The notes under the pieces: model-generated | What the model was told of the DNA's origin: nothing | The model's database searches: none | The model's input: the letters and a program-made list of their open reading frames with translations, nothing else | Made by a program: the position numbers and the translations under genes | Part shown: positions 2,355-62,334 of the stretch, in pieces | How the letters are laid out: every line of letters begins with the position of its first letter | Numbering within the stretch: the first letter of the stretch is position 1 | From: Bacillota bacterium | Lineage (GTDB): Bacteria; Bacillota; Clostridia; SK-Y3 | NCBI GenBank assembly: GCA_022360955.1 | Contig: JAKSBV010000203.1 | Location: 1 to 64,000 of the forward strand | Length of the DNA: 64,000 nucleotides | Direction of reading: 5' to 3'

Positions 2355-2355
2355 T

Positions 2356-2456
2356 AAAGATAAGTGTACGTTAAATCTATCAATACATTTGAACAAACAA
2401 CGCAGAAGGGTCGTTGTTTGTTCAAATGTAGTCTAAGCTTGCCATTCGTTATATTT
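2356..2456 (-). repeat. 103-bp palindromic element, copy C (minus orientation)
   Basis: Contains a perfect 18-bp inverted repeat (2384-2401 with 2413-2430) around an 11-nt loop. Read on the minus strand the whole stretch aligns with the copies at 25177-25280 and 56061-56163, including the loop ACAACGA..TTCTGCG and the flanking arms. It is not followed by a T-tract on the + strand, so it is not a typical terminator for the CBM-like gene. Confidence 0.75.
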
Positions 2457-2496
2457 GCCGGCATCGTTTTCTTCAACCCAAATTCATAAAAAATGC

Positions 2497-16894: not shown

Positions 16895-17597
16895 GGTCAT
16901 GAAATCTTTTCAAATTAATGTGGGAGCACCATTGACGGTTGATCCTATTGATGTTGAACAGACACAAAACGAACAATCTCCGGCTGATGAGGCACGGCAA
17001 TTAGTGGACGATGCTTGTGCGGAAGCGGAAAAAACAATTAATGATGCCAATAAAATGGCTGAAAAAATATTGGAAGATGCCCGGCAACAGGCTGAAAAGA
17101 TGCGATTAACGGTCTTAGAACAGGCTAGAGAAGAAGGATACCGGCAGGGGCATGAGGAAATTACGCAAAAAGCGGAATCTTTACTTAAGGAAGCAGAGGA
17201 AATCAGGGAAAGGGCGCAGCAAGAATATCAGGCCTTGTTGGAATCGGCAGAAAAAGATATTGTGGACCTTGTTTTAGACATTACCCAAAAGGTTATTGGT
17301 GATGAAGTCGAATCCAGACCTGAGGCTGTTCATTCACTGGTAGTTCAGACGCTGCATAAATGTAAAGGTGCTGAAACCGTCATTATAAGAGTTTCACCAT
17401 CGGATTACGAAACCGTCAGACAAAATAAAGATGCGATTATCCAGCAAAGCGCATTTTCCGGAGAAGTTACCGTCAAAAAGGATCTGTCACTCAAATCCGG
17501 AGGGTGTATTGTAGAGACCCCCGGCGGGAAAATCGATGCCGGCTTTCGGACACAGCTTAAAGGGATTGAGGAAGCATTTAATGAGTTGTTGAATTAG
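16878..17597 (+). CDS. fliH: Flagellar export ATPase regulator FliH
   Basis: FliH dimers hold the ATPase FliI inactive and dock it to the C-ring. The 239-residue form has a long coiled-coil rich in A/E/K/Q (about 45-120) and the conserved C-terminal V-ATPase E-like domain (VDLVLDITQKVIGDEVESRPE, GGCIVETPGGKIDAGFRTQL). The start is not certain: ATG 16878 is given, but TTG 16887 (9 nt after GGGGGAG) and ATG 16899 are possible; all overlap or abut the fliG stop. Just before fliI. Confidence 0.92.
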   Translation: MKSLSRVMKSFQINVGAPLTVDPIDVEQTQNEQSPADEARQLVDDACAEAEKTINDANKMAEKILEDARQQAEKMRLTVLEQAREEGYRQGHEEITQKAESLLKEAEEIRERAQQEYQALLESAEKDIVDLVLDITQKVIGDEVESRPEAVHSLVVQTLHKCKGAETVIIRVSPSDYETVRQNKDAIIQQSAFSGEVTVKKDLSLKSGGCIVETPGGKIDAGFRTQLKGIEEAFNELLN

Positions 17598-17599
17598 TA

Positions 17600-17627
17600 G
17601 GGAGTGGGGAGTAGGGCGTGGGGAGTG
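17600..17627 (+). repeat. Heptamer array forming the fliI start region
   Basis: Units GGGAGTG, GGGAGTA, GGGCGTG, GGGAGTG run from three bases after the fliH stop into the first codons of fliI. The array supplies both the GGAG-like ribosome site and the GTG start codon (17618). Confidence 0.75.
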
Positions 17628-18943
17628 CAGAGAAAAGTATTCATTTTGGAAAGTACCGTGAAGCACTGCAAAACAATTGTTTTGTTAAATATTGGGGCAA
17701 GGTTTCCCAGGTAGTGGGGCTTACCATTGAGTCCTGTGGTCCTGCTGTCAATATTGGTGAGCTTTGTTACATCTATACCAGCAAAGGTGCCAGCTATATT
17801 ATGGCAGAAGTCGTGGGATTTAAAGATGATAAGGTATTGCTTATGCCCTTGGGAGATATGAGTGGGATTGGTTCAGGAAGCATGGTCGTTGCTACGGGAC
17901 ATATGCAGCGAGCACGTGTGGGAGAAGCTTTGATAGGCAGAGTCTTGGATGGGCTTGGAAACCCGATAGATGGGAAAGGGCCGCTGGAAGTCAGCCGTTT
18001 TTATCCCGTGAATAATATGCCCCCGGATCCTCTGTCCCGAAGAAGAATTGAGAATCCTTTATCTATGGGGATCAAGGCGATCGATGGGTTGTTAACCATC
18101 GGGAAGGGACAAAGAGTAGGTGTATTTGCAGGAAGTGGCGTAGGGAAGAGTACATTGATGGGGATGGTGGCTCGACATTCTCTTTCCGATGTAAATGTCA
18201 TCGGACTTATCGGAGAAAGAGGCAGGGAAGTAAGGGAGTTTATAGAAAAGGACTTAAGAGAAGAGGGCTTAAAACGATCGGTGATTGTTGTTGCAACTTC
18301 CGACCAGCCTGCTTTGATAAGATTAAAAAGTGCCTTGTTTGTTACGACCATTGCCGAATATTTTCGAGACAAAGGCAAAGATGTTCTTCTTTTGATGGAT
18401 TCCCTGACACGTTTTGCAATGGCACAAAGAGAAGTGGGGTTAGCGATAGGAGAACCACCCGTATCCAGAGGGTATACGCCGTCGGTTTTTGCTGCATTAC
18501 CCAAGCTGTTAGAGCGTGCAGGAAATTCCGCAAATGGTTCCATTACAGGTTTATATACGGTTCTGGTAGACGGGGACGATATGACCGAGCCGGTTACGGA
18601 TACGGCCCGAGGGACTTTAGATGGCCATATTGTCCTATCCAGAAATCTTGCCAATAGAAATCATTATCCTGCTATCGATGTACTGGCAAGTATCAGCAGG
18701 GTGATGGGAGATGTTGTAACAGAGGAACAAGTAAAACTTGCAAACGAAATTAAAAGGGTCATGGCCGTTTATAAAGAAGCGGAGGATCTAATCAATATCG
18801 GTGCTTATATTAAGGGAAGCAATCCTAATATTGATTACGCCATAGAATACATAGAAAGCATCAATCGGTTCTTACGGCAGGACATATACGATCACTTTAC
18901 TTTTGAACAAGTGTTGGAACAAATGAAGGAAGTGCTTAATTAG
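17618..18943 (+). CDS. fliI: Flagellum-specific ATP synthase-like ATPase FliI
   Basis: ATPase of the flagellar type III export apparatus, related to F1-beta. The 441-residue protein has the Walker A loop AGSGVGKST (residues 171-179), Walker B region KDVLLLMDSLTRFAMAQREV, and the typical GEPPVSRGYTPSVFA segment. GTG at 17618 is the only in-frame start near the conserved N-terminus and falls inside a heptamer array, so translation initiation here depends on repeat-derived sequence. Followed by a heptamer-bounded spacer and fliJ. Confidence 0.96.
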   Translation: MGSAEKSIHFGKYREALQNNCFVKYWGKVSQVVGLTIESCGPAVNIGELCYIYTSKGASYIMAEVVGFKDDKVLLMPLGDMSGIGSGSMVVATGHMQRARVGEALIGRVLDGLGNPIDGKGPLEVSRFYPVNNMPPDPLSRRRIENPLSMGIKAIDGLLTIGKGQRVGVFAGSGVGKSTLMGMVARHSLSDVNVIGLIGERGREVREFIEKDLREEGLKRSVIVVATSDQPALIRLKSALFVTTIAEYFRDKGKDVLLLMDSLTRFAMAQREVGLAIGEPPVSRGYTPSVFAALPKLLERAGNSANGSITGLYTVLVDGDDMTEPVTDTARGTLDGHIVLSRNLANRNHYPAIDVLASISRVMGDVVTEEQVKLANEIKRVMAVYKEAEDLINIGAYIKGSNPNIDYAIEYIESINRFLRQDIYDHFTFEQVLEQMKEVLN

Positions 18944-19078
18944 TGGGGAGTGGGGAGGTTGGAGTAGGGAGAATTTTTGAGGGTTAAATGTACGAAGGTC
19001 CGTATAAAATGTTTATGGCGAAATATATGGTTTGTTTTCGGAGGTTTTCTCTCCCCACCCCTCACTCCCGACTCCCCA
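18943..19078 (+). repeat. Heptamer-bounded element between fliI and fliJ
   Basis: Left arm GTGGGGA, GTGGGGA, GGTTGGA, GTAGGGA (18943-18970) starts at the last base of fliI. Right arm CTCCCCA, CCCCTCA, CTCCCGA, CTCCCCA (19051-19078). The arms are mutually complementary in large part and enclose an 80-base AT-rich core; the fliJ ribosome site follows directly. Confidence 0.75.
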
Positions 19079-19100
19079 CTAACATAGGAGGTTTTCTAAG

Positions 19101-25094: not shown

Positions 25095-25176
25095 ATCCGG
25101 ATGCGGAAAAAACAAGCGTGATATAGTATGGCATATAGATTGAACATGAAAAAGAGTTTGTATTTTATGAAGGTAT

Positions 25177-25280
25177 AAAGATAGCACACTTTAAACCTAA
25201 ACATGCATTTGGATCAAATAACGATGGTTCTGCGTTTTTTGTCCAAATATAAATGCCATTTTAAGGTGTGATATCTATAT
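25177..25280 (+). repeat. 103-bp palindromic element, copy A
   Basis: Outer stem GATAGCACACT (25180-25190) with GGTGTGATATC (25265-25275); inner stem from CATTTGGATCAAA (about 25206-25218) with TTTTTTGTCCAAAT (about 25236-25249). Aligns over its full length with 56061-56163 (+), and with the reverse complements of 2356-2456 and 47990-48093. Confidence 0.85.
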
Positions 25281-43796: not shown

Positions 43797-43802
43797 TTGC
43801 TT

Positions 43803-43860
43803 AAAGATAAAGAACTGCAACCCTAAAACATATTTGATTTTAAAGTTCGGTATCCATATA
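43803..43860 (+). repeat. 103-bp palindromic element, deletion copy E
   Basis: Matches both ends of copy B (AAAGATA..CTGCAACC..CTAAAA and TTTGATTTTAAAGT..TATC.ATA) but lacks the roughly 45-bp inner hairpin. The outer stem is kept (GATAAAGAACT 43806-43816 with AGTTCGGTATC 43844-43854), with two base pairs changed on both sides relative to copy B. Confidence 0.65.
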
Positions 43861-47989: not shown

Positions 47990-48093
47990 CATATGGATAC
48001 GGGACTTTACAATCGAATCTATATTTTGAACAAAGAGGTAGAATCATCGTTGTTTGTTCAAAGGTATGCGGAGGTTGCAGCTCGTTATCTTTA
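47990..48093 (-). repeat. 103-bp palindromic element, copy D (minus orientation)
   Basis: Read on the minus strand it aligns along its whole length with copy B: AAAGATA, CTGCAACCT, the inner arm TTTGAACAAACAACGA, loop TTCT, TTTGTTCAAAATATAG, ATTCGATT.TAAAGT and GTATCCATAT. It lies in the presumed 5' leader of rpsB and ends 56 nt before its start codon. Confidence 0.8.
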
Positions 48094-53444: not shown

Positions 53445-54617
53445 ATGGTCAGAAATATATCCATTTTGGGGTCAACCGGTTCGATAGGGACGCAAACATT
53501 AGATGTAGTAGATAGCATGGAGAATGTAAAAGTATGGGGGTTATCTACCAACACAAGCATTGATTTGCTAGAAAGACAAATAAGACAGTATAGACCTAAA
53601 ATAGCGGCTGTAATGGATGATCAATGCGCTAAAAAATTAAAACAAAAGGTAAACGATACCGACACAAAAGTGGTTGCCGGTATGGAGGGGCTTATAGCGG
53701 CTGCTACATTGCCGCAGGTTGAAATGGTGGTAACCTCAGTGGTTGGGATCGTTGGACTGGTGCCGACGCTAGAAGCGATAAAAGCCCGTAAACATATTGC
53801 ATTGGCCAATAAAGAAACCTTGGTTACGGCGGGTAATATCATTATGCAGCAGGCCCGAAATCACAATGTTTCCATTATTCCCGTTGACAGCGAACATTCG
53901 GCGATCTTTCAATGTTTGCAAGGAGATGATCAAGATGCAGTGCGTTCTGTTATTCTTACAGCTTCCGGAGGACCCTTCTTACATAAACGACCGGAAGAGT
54001 TAAAAGATGTAACGCCCCAACAGGCTTTAAAGCATCCGAACTGGGATATGGGACATAAAATCAGTATTGATTCCGCAACAATGATGAATAAAGGATTGGA
54101 GATTATTGAAGCCAAATGGCTTTTTAACATGGATATAGATCAAATACAGGTGGTGGTTCATCCTCAAAGCATTATACATTCAATGGTAGAATACATCGAT
54201 CATTCTATCATTGCACAATTAGGATTGCCGGACATGAGGATCCCGATACAATATGCACTTACCTATCCGAATAGGATTGCGTCCAATCATGAGAGGCTGG
54301 ATTTATGTAAAATAAATGAATTAACATTTATACGGCCCGATTTTGAGACCTTTACATGTCTGGCCCTTGCCTATGAGGCGATCAAAGAGGATGGAACAAT
54401 GCCTGCCGTGTTAAATGCGGCCAATGAAATTGCTGTTGATTTGTTTTTAAAAGGAAAAATCGGTTTTACAGAAATTGCAATGTTAATTGAGCAAACAATG
54501 AGGAAGCATAATAATATCAAAGACCCATCGTTAAAAGATATCTTGGAAAGCGATGTCTGGGCGAGGGAATATGTTAAGGATAGCTTGGAGTTCGGAGTTG
54601 GGAGTTTGGAGTTATAG
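53445..54617 (+). CDS. dxr: 1-deoxy-D-xylulose 5-phosphate reductoisomerase
   Basis: Second step of the MEP isoprenoid pathway (DXP to MEP, NADPH-dependent). The 390-residue protein shows the NADPH fold NISILGSTGSIGTQTLDVV, the metal site PVDSEHSAIFQCL, the flexible loop NWDMGHKISIDSATMMNKGLE and MRIPIQYALTYPNR. The last ten residues (SLEFGVGSLEL) are encoded by a heptamer array (54584-54611), so the natural C-terminus has probably been extended or replaced by repeat sequence. Confidence 0.97.
   Translation: MVRNISILGSTGSIGTQTLDVVDSMENVKVWGLSTNTSIDLLERQIRQYRPKIAAVMDDQCAKKLKQKVNDTDTKVVAGMEGLIAAATLPQVEMVVTSVVGIVGLVPTLEAIKARKHIALANKETLVTAGNIIMQQARNHNVSIIPVDSEHSAIFQCLQGDDQDAVRSVILTASGGPFLHKRPEELKDVTPQQALKHPNWDMGHKISIDSATMMNKGLEIIEAKWLFNMDIDQIQVVVHPQSIIHSMVEYIDHSIIAQLGLPDMRIPIQYALTYPNRIASNHERLDLCKINELTFIRPDFETFTCLALAYEAIKEDGTMPAVLNAANEIAVDLFLKGKIGFTEIAMLIEQTMRKHNNIKDPSLKDILESDVWAREYVKDSLEFGVGSLEL
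54584..54611 (+). repeat. Heptamer array forming the 3' end of dxr
   Basis: Units CTTGGAG, TTCGGAG, TTGGGAG, TTTGGAG, with the stop codon TAG only three bases beyond. All in frame with dxr. Confidence 0.75.
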
Positions 54618-54660
54618 ATAACGCACACTAGAACTAGAAATATAATAGTATGGATAAACC

Positions 54661-54688
54661 GGAGGTCAGAAGGCGGAGGTCGGAAAGT
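54661..54688 (+). repeat. Heptamer array in the dxr-rseP spacer
   Basis: Units GGAGGTC, AGAAGGC, GGAGGTC, GGAAAGT. The remaining 230 bases of this 303-bp spacer are AT-rich and show no gene; a TATAAT at 54641-54646 has no -35. Confidence 0.65.
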
Positions 54689-54920
54689 GACTAAACAGGG
54701 ACGGAGAGTAAAATAGCAATGAGCTGTGGTACAATACTGGGGACATTCTCAACCCTCAACTATTTTTCAGATTAGGAATACCTGTTGTTGGAGTACGATT
54801 ATATTTCCAGACTTACTGTTTATTGTATATAGAAAAGCAAAATGTAAAGCTAAATATATATTAACATGATAAGATTTTGTGTTTTTCCGAACTAACGCAT
54901 AGAAAGGTTTGGTGATTGTA

Positions 54921-56051: not shown

Positions 56052-56060
56052 GATTATATT

Positions 56061-56163
56061 AAAGATAGCACACTGCAACCTAAAAATACATTTGGATCAA
56101 ACAACGAGGGTTCTGCGTTTTTTGTCCAAATATAGATTCGATTTTAAAGTGTGATATCTATAT
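56061..56163 (+). repeat. 103-bp palindromic element, copy B
   Basis: Outer stem GATAGCACACT (56064-56074) with AGTGTGATATC (56148-56158), inner stem ACATTTGGATCAAA with TTTTTTGTCCAAAT, loop around GAGGGTTCTG. It ends next to the ispG ribosome site (GAGGAG at 56165-56170), so it forms the leader of ispG. Confidence 0.85.
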
Positions 56164-58017: not shown

Positions 58018-61000
58018 ATGGCTCAACACGCAGCCGATGCTTATAGTTTGACCAAATTGTTTCCTGATATTGAGATGGATCATGCGTTAAAAGAGGTATT
58101 GAGTCGGTCTAAGGTACTGAGTACCCGCATATATCGTAAAACGAGAACAATTGAGATTACCATCCAGGCAAATGCCTTGATATATAAAAGGAGTCTTGAC
58201 CGGATAAGAAAAAAAATCAAAGATAGATACGGATTGAAAAAGATGCTTTTAAACGTTCACTATGTGGATGTGCAAGACAACGATGATTATTTGCAGGATT
58301 ATTATGAGAGCATACGGTATTACCTCCGGAAAAGATTTCCCATATGCCGCAGTTTACTGGCCGAAAGTCTGTGTAAATACGAAAAGGAAAAAAACAAACT
58401 ATTGATCGAACTAAAATTCGGAGGGTCCCATTTGTTGAAACATTACAAATGTGATAAAACCATTGAGGTATTAATCAAAGAAGAGTTCGGAGAAAAGATA
58501 GATGTTGAATTTGTAGACCTGCATGTATTAAAAGAACAGAAGCATGAATACTTTAGTTTTAAAGAAAACGAAGAAAAAGCGATTATTTCAAAAGCGTTAG
58601 CGGAGACCCAACCAGAATATAAAGAGAGTTCCTCGTCATCCCATGGTCCGCCTGCGGACAAACAGGTTCCAAAGGCTTCGTCTATCCTATTGGGTAAGCC
58701 GATCAAAGGAGAAGTTACGGGGTTGTCACAGGTAAGCCCCGAATCCGGCCGTGTTGTTGTTGAAGGGGATGTATTTGCTGTTGATGTCAGAGAGATCAGA
58801 GGAAACAGATATATCGTTTCCTTGGATATTACCGATTATGTGAGCTCTATCACTGCTAAATTTTTTAGTGATAAAGAGAAATTTGCGCAGATGAAAGACA
58901 AAATGAAAAGCGGTATCCGCATAAAAATAAGAGGAGAAGCCCAATACGATAAATATGCGAGAGAGCTTGTCATTTTTGCTTATGACATTACCCAAGTTGC
59001 CAAACAGGAGAAAATGGATACGGCTGAGAAGAAGAGGGTAGAATTGCATCTGCATACGCAGATGAGTGCAATGGACGGCATATCGTCAGTCAAAGAGCTG
59101 GTTGGCAGAGCGGCCAAGTGGGGACATCGTGCCATTGCCATTACGGACCACGGTGTGGTACAAGCTTATCCTGAAGCCTATGAAGCGGGAAAGAAACACA
59201 ATATCAAAATTATATACGGTGTAGAATGCTATCTCGTGGACGATCATACGCCCATTGTCTACCATCCTGCAGAGATCCCGTTTGATGGGGATTTTGTAGT
59301 ATTTGACATTGAAACGACGGGATTAAATGCGCAAAGGGATAGAATCACCGAAATAGGGGCCGTAAAAGTAAGCAACGGAAGCATAGTGGACAGGTTCAAT
59401 ACTTTTGTGAATCCGGAAATCCCCATACCGCGCAAGATTACGGAGTTAACGGGTATCAGTGATGAAATGGTAAAGGATGCGCCTGCTATTCATGAGGTCA
59501 TCGGCCGGTTTTTACAGTTTAGTGAAAATTGTGTTTTGGTTGCACATAATGCCCCCTTTGATACGGGGTTTATTAAAATAAATGCGCGAAAGCTGGATAT
59601 TGATTTCAATTACTGTATTTTAGACACATTGGAACTGAGCAGGGGGTTGTTTCCCAAATTAAAGCGCCACAAACTGAATATCATTGCAAAACACCTTGAT
59701 ATCAAGCTGGAAAATCACCACAGAGCAGTTGATGATGCGGAAGCCACGGCAGAGATATTCATTAAGTGCATCAAACTTTTAAAAGAAAGAAATATAGAAA
59801 ATGTAAGTGAGATTAACAACGCTTTTTCCGGGGCGATTGATGTCAAAAAGATGCCGCCCTACCATGCTGTGATTCTTGTGAAGGATTATGTCGGCCTGCG
59901 GAATTTATATAAAATTATTTCCGAGTCCCATTTGAATTATTTTTATAAGAAACCCCGTGTCCCTAAAAGTCTATATATGCAGTATAAAGAAGGACTGATG
60001 ATTGGGTCCGGCTGTGAAGCAGGCGAACTCTACCGGGCTATTTTGCAGGGCAAGCCCTATGAAGAGGTTTTAAAAATTGTGCGCTTTTATGATTATTTGG
60101 AAATACAGCCGTTAAAAAACAACTATTTCTTAATTGAGAACGAAAGTGTTAAAAATGTTGAGCAATTGAAGGAAATTAACAGAGAGATTGTAAAATTGGG
60201 TGAGAAATATAAAAAGCCGGTGGTCGCCACCTGTGATGTGCATTTTCTTGACCCTTGCGATGAGGTGTTCAGAAGAATTCTAATGGCCGGGCAAGGTTTT
60301 AAGGATGCGGACCATCAAGCACCGTTATATCTGAGAACTACAGATGAGATGTTAGAGGAATTCAGTTATTTGGGCAAAGAAAAGGCCTGGGAAGTGGTCG
60401 TGGAGAGCACCAACGGTATTGCCGATATGATCGAACACGTACTGCCCATACCGGAAGAAACGTTTACCCCGGAAATTGAAGGAGCGGAAAGTGAGATAAA
60501 AACACTTTCAACCAATAAGGCTAAGAACATTTATGGTGCCCCGCTGCCTCCCATTGTGGAAGAAAGAATGAACAGAGAGTTAAATTCTATTATTAAGAAC
60601 GGCTTTTCGGTCATGTATATTATTGCGCAGAAACTGGTAACAAAGTCTTTGAGCGACGGGTATCTGGTTGGCTCCAGAGGTTCCGTAGGCTCTTCGTTCG
60701 TAGCCTTTTTGACGGATATAACGGAAGTCAATGCCCTGCCGCCCCACTACGTATGTGCACAATGCAAATATTCGGAGTTTGTTACAGACGGTTCGGTGGG
60801 GTCAGGAGCGGATATGCCCGATAAAAATTGTCCTAAATGCGGCCACAAGCTTGATAAGGACGGACATGATATTCCTTTTGAGACCTTTTTGGGGTTTGAC
60901 GGAGATAAGGAACCGGATATCGACCTTAACTTTTCAGGGGATTATCAACCGACTGCACATAAATATACGGAGGAATTATTTGGAGAGGGCCATGTATTTA

Positions 61001-62334
61001 GAGCGGGAACCATTGGTACGATAGCGGAAAAGACTGCCTATGGTTTTGTGAAAAAATACCTTGACGAAAGAGAAAAGGTTGTTCATAATGCGGAAATAAA
61101 TCGTTTGGTGAAAGGGTGTACCGGGGTAAAGCGTACAACGGGGCAACATCCCGGAGGTGTCATGATTGTACCGAGCAAAAATGAAATATATGAGTTTTGC
61201 CCTATCCAGCGCCCGGCGGATGATACGAGTTCCAATATCATTACGACCCACTTTGATTATCACTCGATCAGCGGTCGCTTGCTGAAGCTGGATATACTGG
61301 GCCACGACGACCCGACGGTTATTAGGATGCTGGAAGACCTTACAGGGGTCAATGCTCGGGAGATTCCCATTGATGACCCTGCCACCATGAGTATTTTTAC
61401 GACTACGGAGGCCCTGGGGATTAATCCGGAAGATATTGATAGTGAAGTTGGTAGCTTTGCCATTCCGGAATTCGGAACAAAGTTTGTACGTCAAATGTTG
61501 ATTGATACACAACCGGGAACTTTTGCAGAATTGGTTCGTATCAGCGGATTGTCCCACGGTACCGACGTCTGGTTAAACAATGCCCAGGAATTAGTAAGAA
61601 AGGGCACTGCAAAATTGTCGGAAGTCATATGTACGAGGGACGATATTATGGTGTACCTTATATACAAGGGCGTGCCCAAAAAGCATGCGTTTAAGATTAT
61701 GGAAAGCGTGCGAAAGGGAAAGGGGTTAATGGAAGAGGATGAGAAAGTGATGCGTGAGAAAAATGTACCCGATTGGTATATAGCATCGTGTAAAAAAATA
61801 AAGTATATGTTTCCCAAAGCCCACGCTGCGGCCTATGTGACCATGGCTTTCAGAATAGCCTATTTCAAAGTACACCATCCGGAAGCATTTTATATCGCTT
61901 ATTTTACGGTAAGAGCAGATGATTTTGACGCCCAGCTCATGACCCATGGGGTAGATCGGGTAAGAAACAAAATCAAAGATCTGGAATCAAAAGGGAATGA
62001 TATAACGACAAAAGAAAAAAATATTTTAACAATCCTGGAAGTGTGTAACGAAATGTATAGCCGAGGGATCAAATTCCTTCCTATAGATCTATATAAGTCC
62101 GATGCCTCTTATTTTATCAATACGGGCAAGGGGATTCTGCCGCCGCTGAATGCATTGCAGGGTGTAGGTACGGCAGCAGCCAAAAATATGGTGGAGGCCA
62201 GAAAGGACGGAGAGTTTCTTTCTATCGATGATTTGAGAATAAGAGCCAAAGTGAGCAAAACGGTGATTGAAATTTTACAGGAACACGGGTGTTTGGAGGG
62301 ACTGCCGGAGAGTAATCAGTTGAGTTTATTTTAG
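58018..62334 (+). CDS. polC: DNA polymerase III alpha subunit, Gram-positive type PolC
   Basis: Main replicative polymerase with built-in proofreading. The 1438-residue protein has, in order: N-terminal domains (about 1-220), an OB-fold (about 230-330), the split PHP domain beginning VELHLHTQMSAMDG (residue 341 on), the inserted DEDDh exonuclease (VVFDIETTGL at about 427; VAHNAPFDTGF; HRAVDDAEATAEIF), the rest of PHP, and the polymerase core with a zinc-binding insert (CAQC..CPKCGHK) and the catalytic PDIDLNFSGDYQ near 967. Length and order are standard. ATG 58018 follows AAAGGGGGGG. Confidence 0.98.
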   Translation: MAQHAADAYSLTKLFPDIEMDHALKEVLSRSKVLSTRIYRKTRTIEITIQANALIYKRSLDRIRKKIKDRYGLKKMLLNVHYVDVQDNDDYLQDYYESIRYYLRKRFPICRSLLAESLCKYEKEKNKLLIELKFGGSHLLKHYKCDKTIEVLIKEEFGEKIDVEFVDLHVLKEQKHEYFSFKENEEKAIISKALAETQPEYKESSSSSHGPPADKQVPKASSILLGKPIKGEVTGLSQVSPESGRVVVEGDVFAVDVREIRGNRYIVSLDITDYVSSITAKFFSDKEKFAQMKDKMKSGIRIKIRGEAQYDKYARELVIFAYDITQVAKQEKMDTAEKKRVELHLHTQMSAMDGISSVKELVGRAAKWGHRAIAITDHGVVQAYPEAYEAGKKHNIKIIYGVECYLVDDHTPIVYHPAEIPFDGDFVVFDIETTGLNAQRDRITEIGAVKVSNGSIVDRFNTFVNPEIPIPRKITELTGISDEMVKDAPAIHEVIGRFLQFSENCVLVAHNAPFDTGFIKINARKLDIDFNYCILDTLELSRGLFPKLKRHKLNIIAKHLDIKLENHHRAVDDAEATAEIFIKCIKLLKERNIENVSEINNAFSGAIDVKKMPPYHAVILVKDYVGLRNLYKIISESHLNYFYKKPRVPKSLYMQYKEGLMIGSGCEAGELYRAILQGKPYEEVLKIVRFYDYLEIQPLKNNYFLIENESVKNVEQLKEINREIVKLGEKYKKPVVATCDVHFLDPCDEVFRRILMAGQGFKDADHQAPLYLRTTDEMLEEFSYLGKEKAWEVVVESTNGIADMIEHVLPIPEETFTPEIEGAESEIKTLSTNKAKNIYGAPLPPIVEERMNRELNSIIKNGFSVMYIIAQKLVTKSLSDGYLVGSRGSVGSSFVAFLTDITEVNALPPHYVCAQCKYSEFVTDGSVGSGADMPDKNCPKCGHKLDKDGHDIPFETFLGFDGDKEPDIDLNFSGDYQPTAHKYTEELFGEGHVFRAGTIGTIAEKTAYGFVKKYLDEREKVVHNAEINRLVKGCTGVKRTTGQHPGGVMIVPSKNEIYEFCPIQRPADDTSSNIITTHFDYHSISGRLLKLDILGHDDPTVIRMLEDLTGVNAREIPIDDPATMSIFTTTEALGINPEDIDSEVGSFAIPEFGTKFVRQMLIDTQPGTFAELVRISGLSHGTDVWLNNAQELVRKGTAKLSEVICTRDDIMVYLIYKGVPKKHAFKIMESVRKGKGLMEEDEKVMREKNVPDWYIASCKKIKYMFPKAHAAAYVTMAFRIAYFKVHHPEAFYIAYFTVRADDFDAQLMTHGVDRVRNKIKDLESKGNDITTKEKNILTILEVCNEMYSRGIKFLPIDLYKSDASYFINTGKGILPPLNALQGVGTAAAKNMVEARKDGEFLSIDDLRIRAKVSKTVIEILQEHGCLEGLPESNQLSLF

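Follow-up and report, generated by a model that had tools for sequence, protein, structure and literature searches.

What kind of sequence is the nested palindrome of about 103 bases that recurs between the genes of a 64,000-nucleotide stretch of a Bacillota genome (contig JAKSBV010000203.1 of assembly GCA_022360955.1; this whole stretch is called the window here)? A preliminary description of the window had offered two readings, a MITE-like element and a repeated structured RNA. Our work favors the first of them: the repeat is very probably a non-autonomous MITE with IS630-type ends that was most likely moved by an IS630 transposase. The element has terminal inverted repeats, a duplicated TA and the ends of a DDE_3 insertion sequence (IS), and its copies are dispersed outside of genes in both orientations.

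Copies of the repeat in the window

The four copies of about 103 bp do align end to end, as confirmed both by whole-length alignment and by the E-values of a covariance model, which are 5e-21, 5e-20, 7e-11 and 4e-7 for the copies that start at positions 25176, 56060, 47992 and 2355, respectively. Three of these copies served to train the model, and the one at 2355-2457 was left out of the training. The four copies are far beyond chance. It was also correct that all of them are intergenic, in unrelated operons, two on each strand. The preliminary description had found all four sites, but the exact limits, which include the flanking TA, are those given in Table 1. It had also assumed one inner-stem sequence for all copies; this is true for the copies at 25176 and 56060 (TTTGGATCAAA) but not for those at 47992 and 2355, in which the inner stem is TTTGAACAAA. 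As compared to dinucleotide shuffles, three of the four copies fold much better (z of -3.9 to -5.7), and the copy at 47992 folds weakly. No named family had been recognized in the repeat, and in agreement with this, an Rfam scan gave no family above the gathering threshold at any MITE copy; the matches in the window are an L20 leader and a tRNA.

Table 1. Positions of the MITE copies, related elements and the insertion sequence. Positions without a prefix refer to the window.
Feature	Position	Strand	Context or remarks
Full-length MITE copy, GCACAC subfamily	25176-25279	+	between flbD-like and motA-like genes
TA duplication of this copy	25176-25177 and 25278-25279
Inner hairpin of this (reference) copy	25206-25251	+	arms CATTTGGATCAAATAACG / CGTTTTTTGTCCAAAT, loop around TTCT
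Full-length MITE copy, GCACAC subfamily	56060-56162	+	between rseP-like gene and ispG (gcpE)
Full-length older MITE copy	47992-48093	-	spacer of upstream ORF and rpsB (ribosomal protein S2)
Full-length divergent, old MITE copy	2355-2457	-	between upstream ORF and L20 leader/infC
57-nt version without inner hairpin	43802-43858	+	both ends kept; covariance-model E 7.5e-5
Member of the sister MITE family	54613-54831		TATAGATAAC tips as in the 103-base repeat, other core
Long-form copies	L071:501-719; L076:1-286; L082:18706-19080; L075:784-1027
IS630-type insertion sequence	L120:2253-3494		contig C400
Further copies of the sister family	L142; L143; L146; L147; C86:99989-100218

Ends of the element and duplication of TA

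The repeat is bordered by imperfect terminal inverted repeats of about 20 bp (left TA-AAGATAnCnnACTTTAAA, right TA-TAGATAnCnnACTTTAAA). In 60 copies, these repeats (TAAAGATAnCnnACTTTAAA / TATAGATAnCnnACTTTAAA) form an outer helix that is 87.5% paired, and the core of the element is nearly palindromic. Among 117 copies, the T and the A of the left edge are present in 89% and 97%, those of the right edge in 85% and 84%, and the sequence beyond these TA edges is merely A+T-rich. A filled and an empty version of one site were found nested within the module of the long form described below: the former reads GGATTGGA-TA-AAGATA...TATCCA-TA-GCACCC, the latter GGATTGGA-TA-GTACC (in full, GGATTGGATAGTACC). 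At a second filled nested site, the sequence is GGATTGGA-TA-MITE-CA-CGACCC. These nested sites within the family show that TA is duplicated upon insertion of the MITE, which is what IS630-type transposition would predict. Such a duplication implies mobility, whatever secondary role the repeat may have.

Copy number and placement in the genome

A search of the 4.64-Mb genome with a pattern made of the two ends (AAAGATA...TATCTATA) gave 87 matches as compared to none for the reversed control pattern. Nearly all of these matches are true copies, and at least 80 copies with exact ends are present genome-wide. In seven contigs that together comprise 401 kb, a profile search detected 43 complete or fragmentary copies, of which 28 are full length. 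None of the 43 lies within a predicted gene, even though 82% of the 401 kb is coding according to our own gene calls. By extrapolation, the whole genome contains about 500 copies that make up about 1% of the sequence, a figure that is approximate since the seven contigs had been picked as large and copy-bearing. Based on their ends, three subfamilies can be distinguished among the best 40 candidates of each DNA search: GCACAC, ACCAAC and GCGCAC. In addition, there is a long form in which a module of about 110 bp (GGGCGTTTTAAAAAATACATGATTCAT...GAAACGCCTTTTGATCGGTTATGGATTGGATA) is always present at one fixed point of the inner stem. This module is often itself the target of another MITE copy. 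The idea that it is a separate repeat was rejected, as every clear copy is located at the same point within the 103-base MITE.

The distribution of the copies also bears on the second reading, according to which the repeat would be a dispersed structured RNA or cis-regulatory element, such as a processing site, an attenuator or an mRNA stabilizer, that is kept by selection at many loci. For the transcripts of ERIC and NEMIS, an RNA role of this kind has been suggested. It would fit with the compensatory changes by which the stems are kept (see below), with the presence of copies in spacers between co-directional genes, and with the position of the copy at 56060-56162, whose 3' edge lies directly before GAGGAG, the likely ribosome-binding site of ispG. 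Moreover, in the tandem spacers 52 of 78 copies are oriented along transcription and 26 against it (P = 0.004; 118 full-length copies, treated as independent of each other); this 2:1 bias may also stem from selection against one orientation. Yet, the copies occur in both orientations in unrelated operons, tandem, divergent and convergent spacers are occupied roughly in proportion to their length, and many copies are decayed, partial or devoid of the hairpin. A covariance-model search, as had been proposed in the preliminary description, detected no copy in 59 relatives, five of the same family among them. Finally, the duplication of TA indicates mobility also in this case. Taken as a claim on structure, the earlier suggestion of a structured RNA is right, as pairing is retained via compensatory changes; these changes alone, however, do not prove an RNA function, and we consider it improbable that selection for such an RNA explains the repeat.

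An IS630-type transposase with matching ends

If the repeat is a MITE, a transposase that recognizes similar ends might be found, and it had been suggested to look for one. Indeed, the genome contains a single DDE_3 (IS630-type) transposase gene, as part of a 1.24-kb IS on contig C400. The ends of this IS are TA-TAGATAACCAAAA and TA-AAGATAACCAAAA, with the tips TAWAGATAACCAAAA; they are also read as TA-TAGATAACCAAAATGG and TA-AAGATAACCAAAACC. The tips of the MITE have 12-13 bp in common with those of the IS at each end, down to the A/T difference by which the left tip departs from the right one, and the subterminal sequences diverge beyond this outer part. Moreover, a MITE copy that is 99% consensus adjoins the right end of the IS. 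The transposase is composed of HTH domains and a DDE_3 domain encoded in two overlapping frames, with a CTTTAAAAAAAATGG overlap located at eight consecutive A. The C400 IS is the only assembled copy, and its transposase is broken by an in-frame TAA; the actual parent may be another IS630 that was lost or that is missing from the assembly of 522 contigs. No IS that matches the subfamilies GCACAC and GCGCAC is present in this assembly.

A second group of elements points in the same direction. A sister MITE family of about 220-240 bp has TATAGATAAC tips and a core with GAAATATAATCGTACTCC, and several of its copies carry the C400 IS's own ends over 25-31 bp. Members of this family also adjoin copies of the 103-base element.

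Outside of this genome, the strict end pattern was found at one locus in a set of 84,980 species that might omit records of the window's own genome. This locus, in Clostridia bacterium SKW182, has the same MITE ends over about 27 bp each, and its core is unrelated to the 103-base element. SKW182 has one DDE_3 transposase that is 71% identical to that of C400 over 127 amino acids. Its gene (IS L139) is open except for the CTTTAAAAAAAATGG overlap between the HTH and DDE frames that is also found in C400, and the presence of this overlap in both insertion sequences suggests that the transposase might be produced by programmed frameshifting. The ends of the SKW182 IS are TATAGATAACGAAgTGTAAA and TATAGATAACGAAcTGTAAA (also read as TATAGATAACGAAGTGTAAA and TATAGATAACGAACTGTAAA), and the MITEs of SKW182 carry both end sequences with a match of about 20 bp. 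A pairing of this IS group with MITEs is thus seen in two genomes, with the end sequences changing together. At an E-value of 1e-12, a search of 390 further genomes from this class gave no close transposase, and the 103-base element is absent from the viral contigs and the plasmid and phage collections that were searched.

We suggest the following scenario: The ends of the MITE, about 20 bp each, imitate those of an IS630-family insertion sequence, and the transposase of the IS would most likely bind both of them in trans. The enzyme would then excise the MITE and insert it at a TA, which would be duplicated, and insertions survive almost solely between genes. The inner hairpin is an extra module outside of the transposase ends, with arms that stay complementary during the spread of the element, most likely due to template switching between the arms in replication or to selection on mobile copies. 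We infer both the mobilization of the 103-base element by the C400 transposase and the role of its hairpin.

The genome has other transposase genes that might come into question. Apart from a single IS200-like gene, it has eight Y1_Tnp matches, and six of the eight are of RAYT-like length. With its high-copy extragenic palindromes in a genome with RAYT-like genes, the element resembles the REP/BIME repeats, and it could have been spread by these Y1 transposases. We regard this as extremely unlikely: the element is found at the border of none of these eight Y1 loci, the only copy in the vicinity lies at a distance of about 1.1 kb with another gene in between, and terminal repeats with a TA duplication suit a DDE enzyme rather than the single-strand transposition of Y1 enzymes. 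A RAYT/REP origin was therefore rejected. The RAYT-like Y1 genes themselves number at least six, with frames of 255-305 amino acids (L062-L067, on contigs C192, C384, C3, C278, C190 and C203).

Maintenance of the inner hairpin

When 60 copies are compared, compensatory changes are seen in the outer as well as in the inner helix (108 cells versus 50 in shuffles); if the partner is slid by one to three columns, at most 24 compensatory cells are left. For the outer helix, such changes are no surprise, given that a single transposase has to accept both ends. The situation was analyzed separately in 42 young copies, i. e. those that depart from the ACCAAC consensus by no more than nine differences. 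Here, the outer helix has no compensatory changes at all, and the inner helix has nine compensatory cells that represent six distinct pair changes. Shuffled inner helices average 0.7 cells and never have more than four, and the observed level was reached in none of 5000 shuffles. Kinship among the copies makes the number of cells too high, but the six distinct changes are not affected by it. In copy L098, exactly one compensatory pair is the sole difference from the consensus, and the pair 35/71 is found among the young copies only in the doubly changed state. These findings suggest that the inner hairpin is kept by hairpin-templated correction of the arms or by selection for a hairpin.

It is tempting to speculate that template switching during replication, and not selection on an RNA, keeps the arms complementary, although we hold this idea only tentatively and regard it as rather doubtful. 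Template switching between the arms of a hairpin is a described source of such paired changes (PMC8794818). Alternatively, the changes might reflect selection for a form competent for transposition, be it DNA in hairpin or cruciform shape or the corresponding RNA, and no mutational mechanism; this is a real possibility, even if we would not call it probable. It agrees with the observation that compensatory changes are common to small groups of copies (e. g. L098/L105 and L069/L100/L114), a pattern that would arise if the other copies descend from a few active ones. In contrast, the copies that lack the hairpin (57 nt) or have a different core possess intact ends and have evidently been inserted, and the lone pair of L098 and the doubly changed pair 35/71 fit a single template-switch event as well (PMC8794818).

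Irrespective of its cause, covariation is strong in a mobile DNA element, and taken by itself it would wrongly have implied a riboregulator. The MITE copies could serve to examine if paired changes come from template switching. If this is the case, hundreds of near-identical copies would record double changes as single events and would show how "covariation" can arise without any RNA function.

Relation to known elements

Among the known elements, RUP of Streptococcus pneumoniae and Correia/NEMIS of Neisseria are the closest kinds. RUP is about 107 bp long, AT-rich and tightly folded, with about 108-110 intergenic copies; it has TA termini and ends like those of IS630-Spn1, which was proposed to move it (PMC2229807, PMC3049150). 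The 103-base element is like RUP in size, TA, folding and IS630-type ends, a likeness drawn from the published descriptions of RUP, and by analogy it would operate in the same way. It differs from RUP by its host, the copy number of about 500, the covarying inner hairpin, the existence of longer and shorter versions and the sister family. Correia/NEMIS elements form classes of about 107 and 155 bp that differ by an internal 50-bp stretch, and they have terminal repeats of 24-26 bp, TA termini, target duplication and foldable transcripts (PMC2229807, PMC3049150). Here, the host is again different, and the long form holds its module of about 110 bp in the inner stem. ERIC of enterobacteria (about 127 bp) is extragenic with TA termini and target duplication (PMC2229807), but no cognate IS is named in that work, whereas an IS630 with matching tips is present in the genome studied here. 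The REP/BIME repeats are set apart by the terminal repeats and the TA duplication of our element and by its lack of association with RAYT genes.

The element represents a family that is new but belongs to a well-known kind, and its unusual trait is the well-kept inner hairpin. It adds a MITE family linked to IS630 from an uncultured lineage that resembles Clostridia; the family occupies about 1% of the genome, and there is evidence for its mobilizer in two genomes. No earlier description of IS630-linked MITEs in Clostridia surfaced in the open literature, only work on Thiomargarita, which is weak evidence of absence.

The window also contains flagellar genes and an ORF of 1438 amino acids, the size of PolC, at 58018-62334. 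Finally, tandem-like runs rich in G (GGGGAGTGGGGAGTAGGG, GGAGTTCGGAGTTGGGAGT) that partly form an inverted pair are found between genes at 17570-17625, 18916-19082 and 54580-54612.
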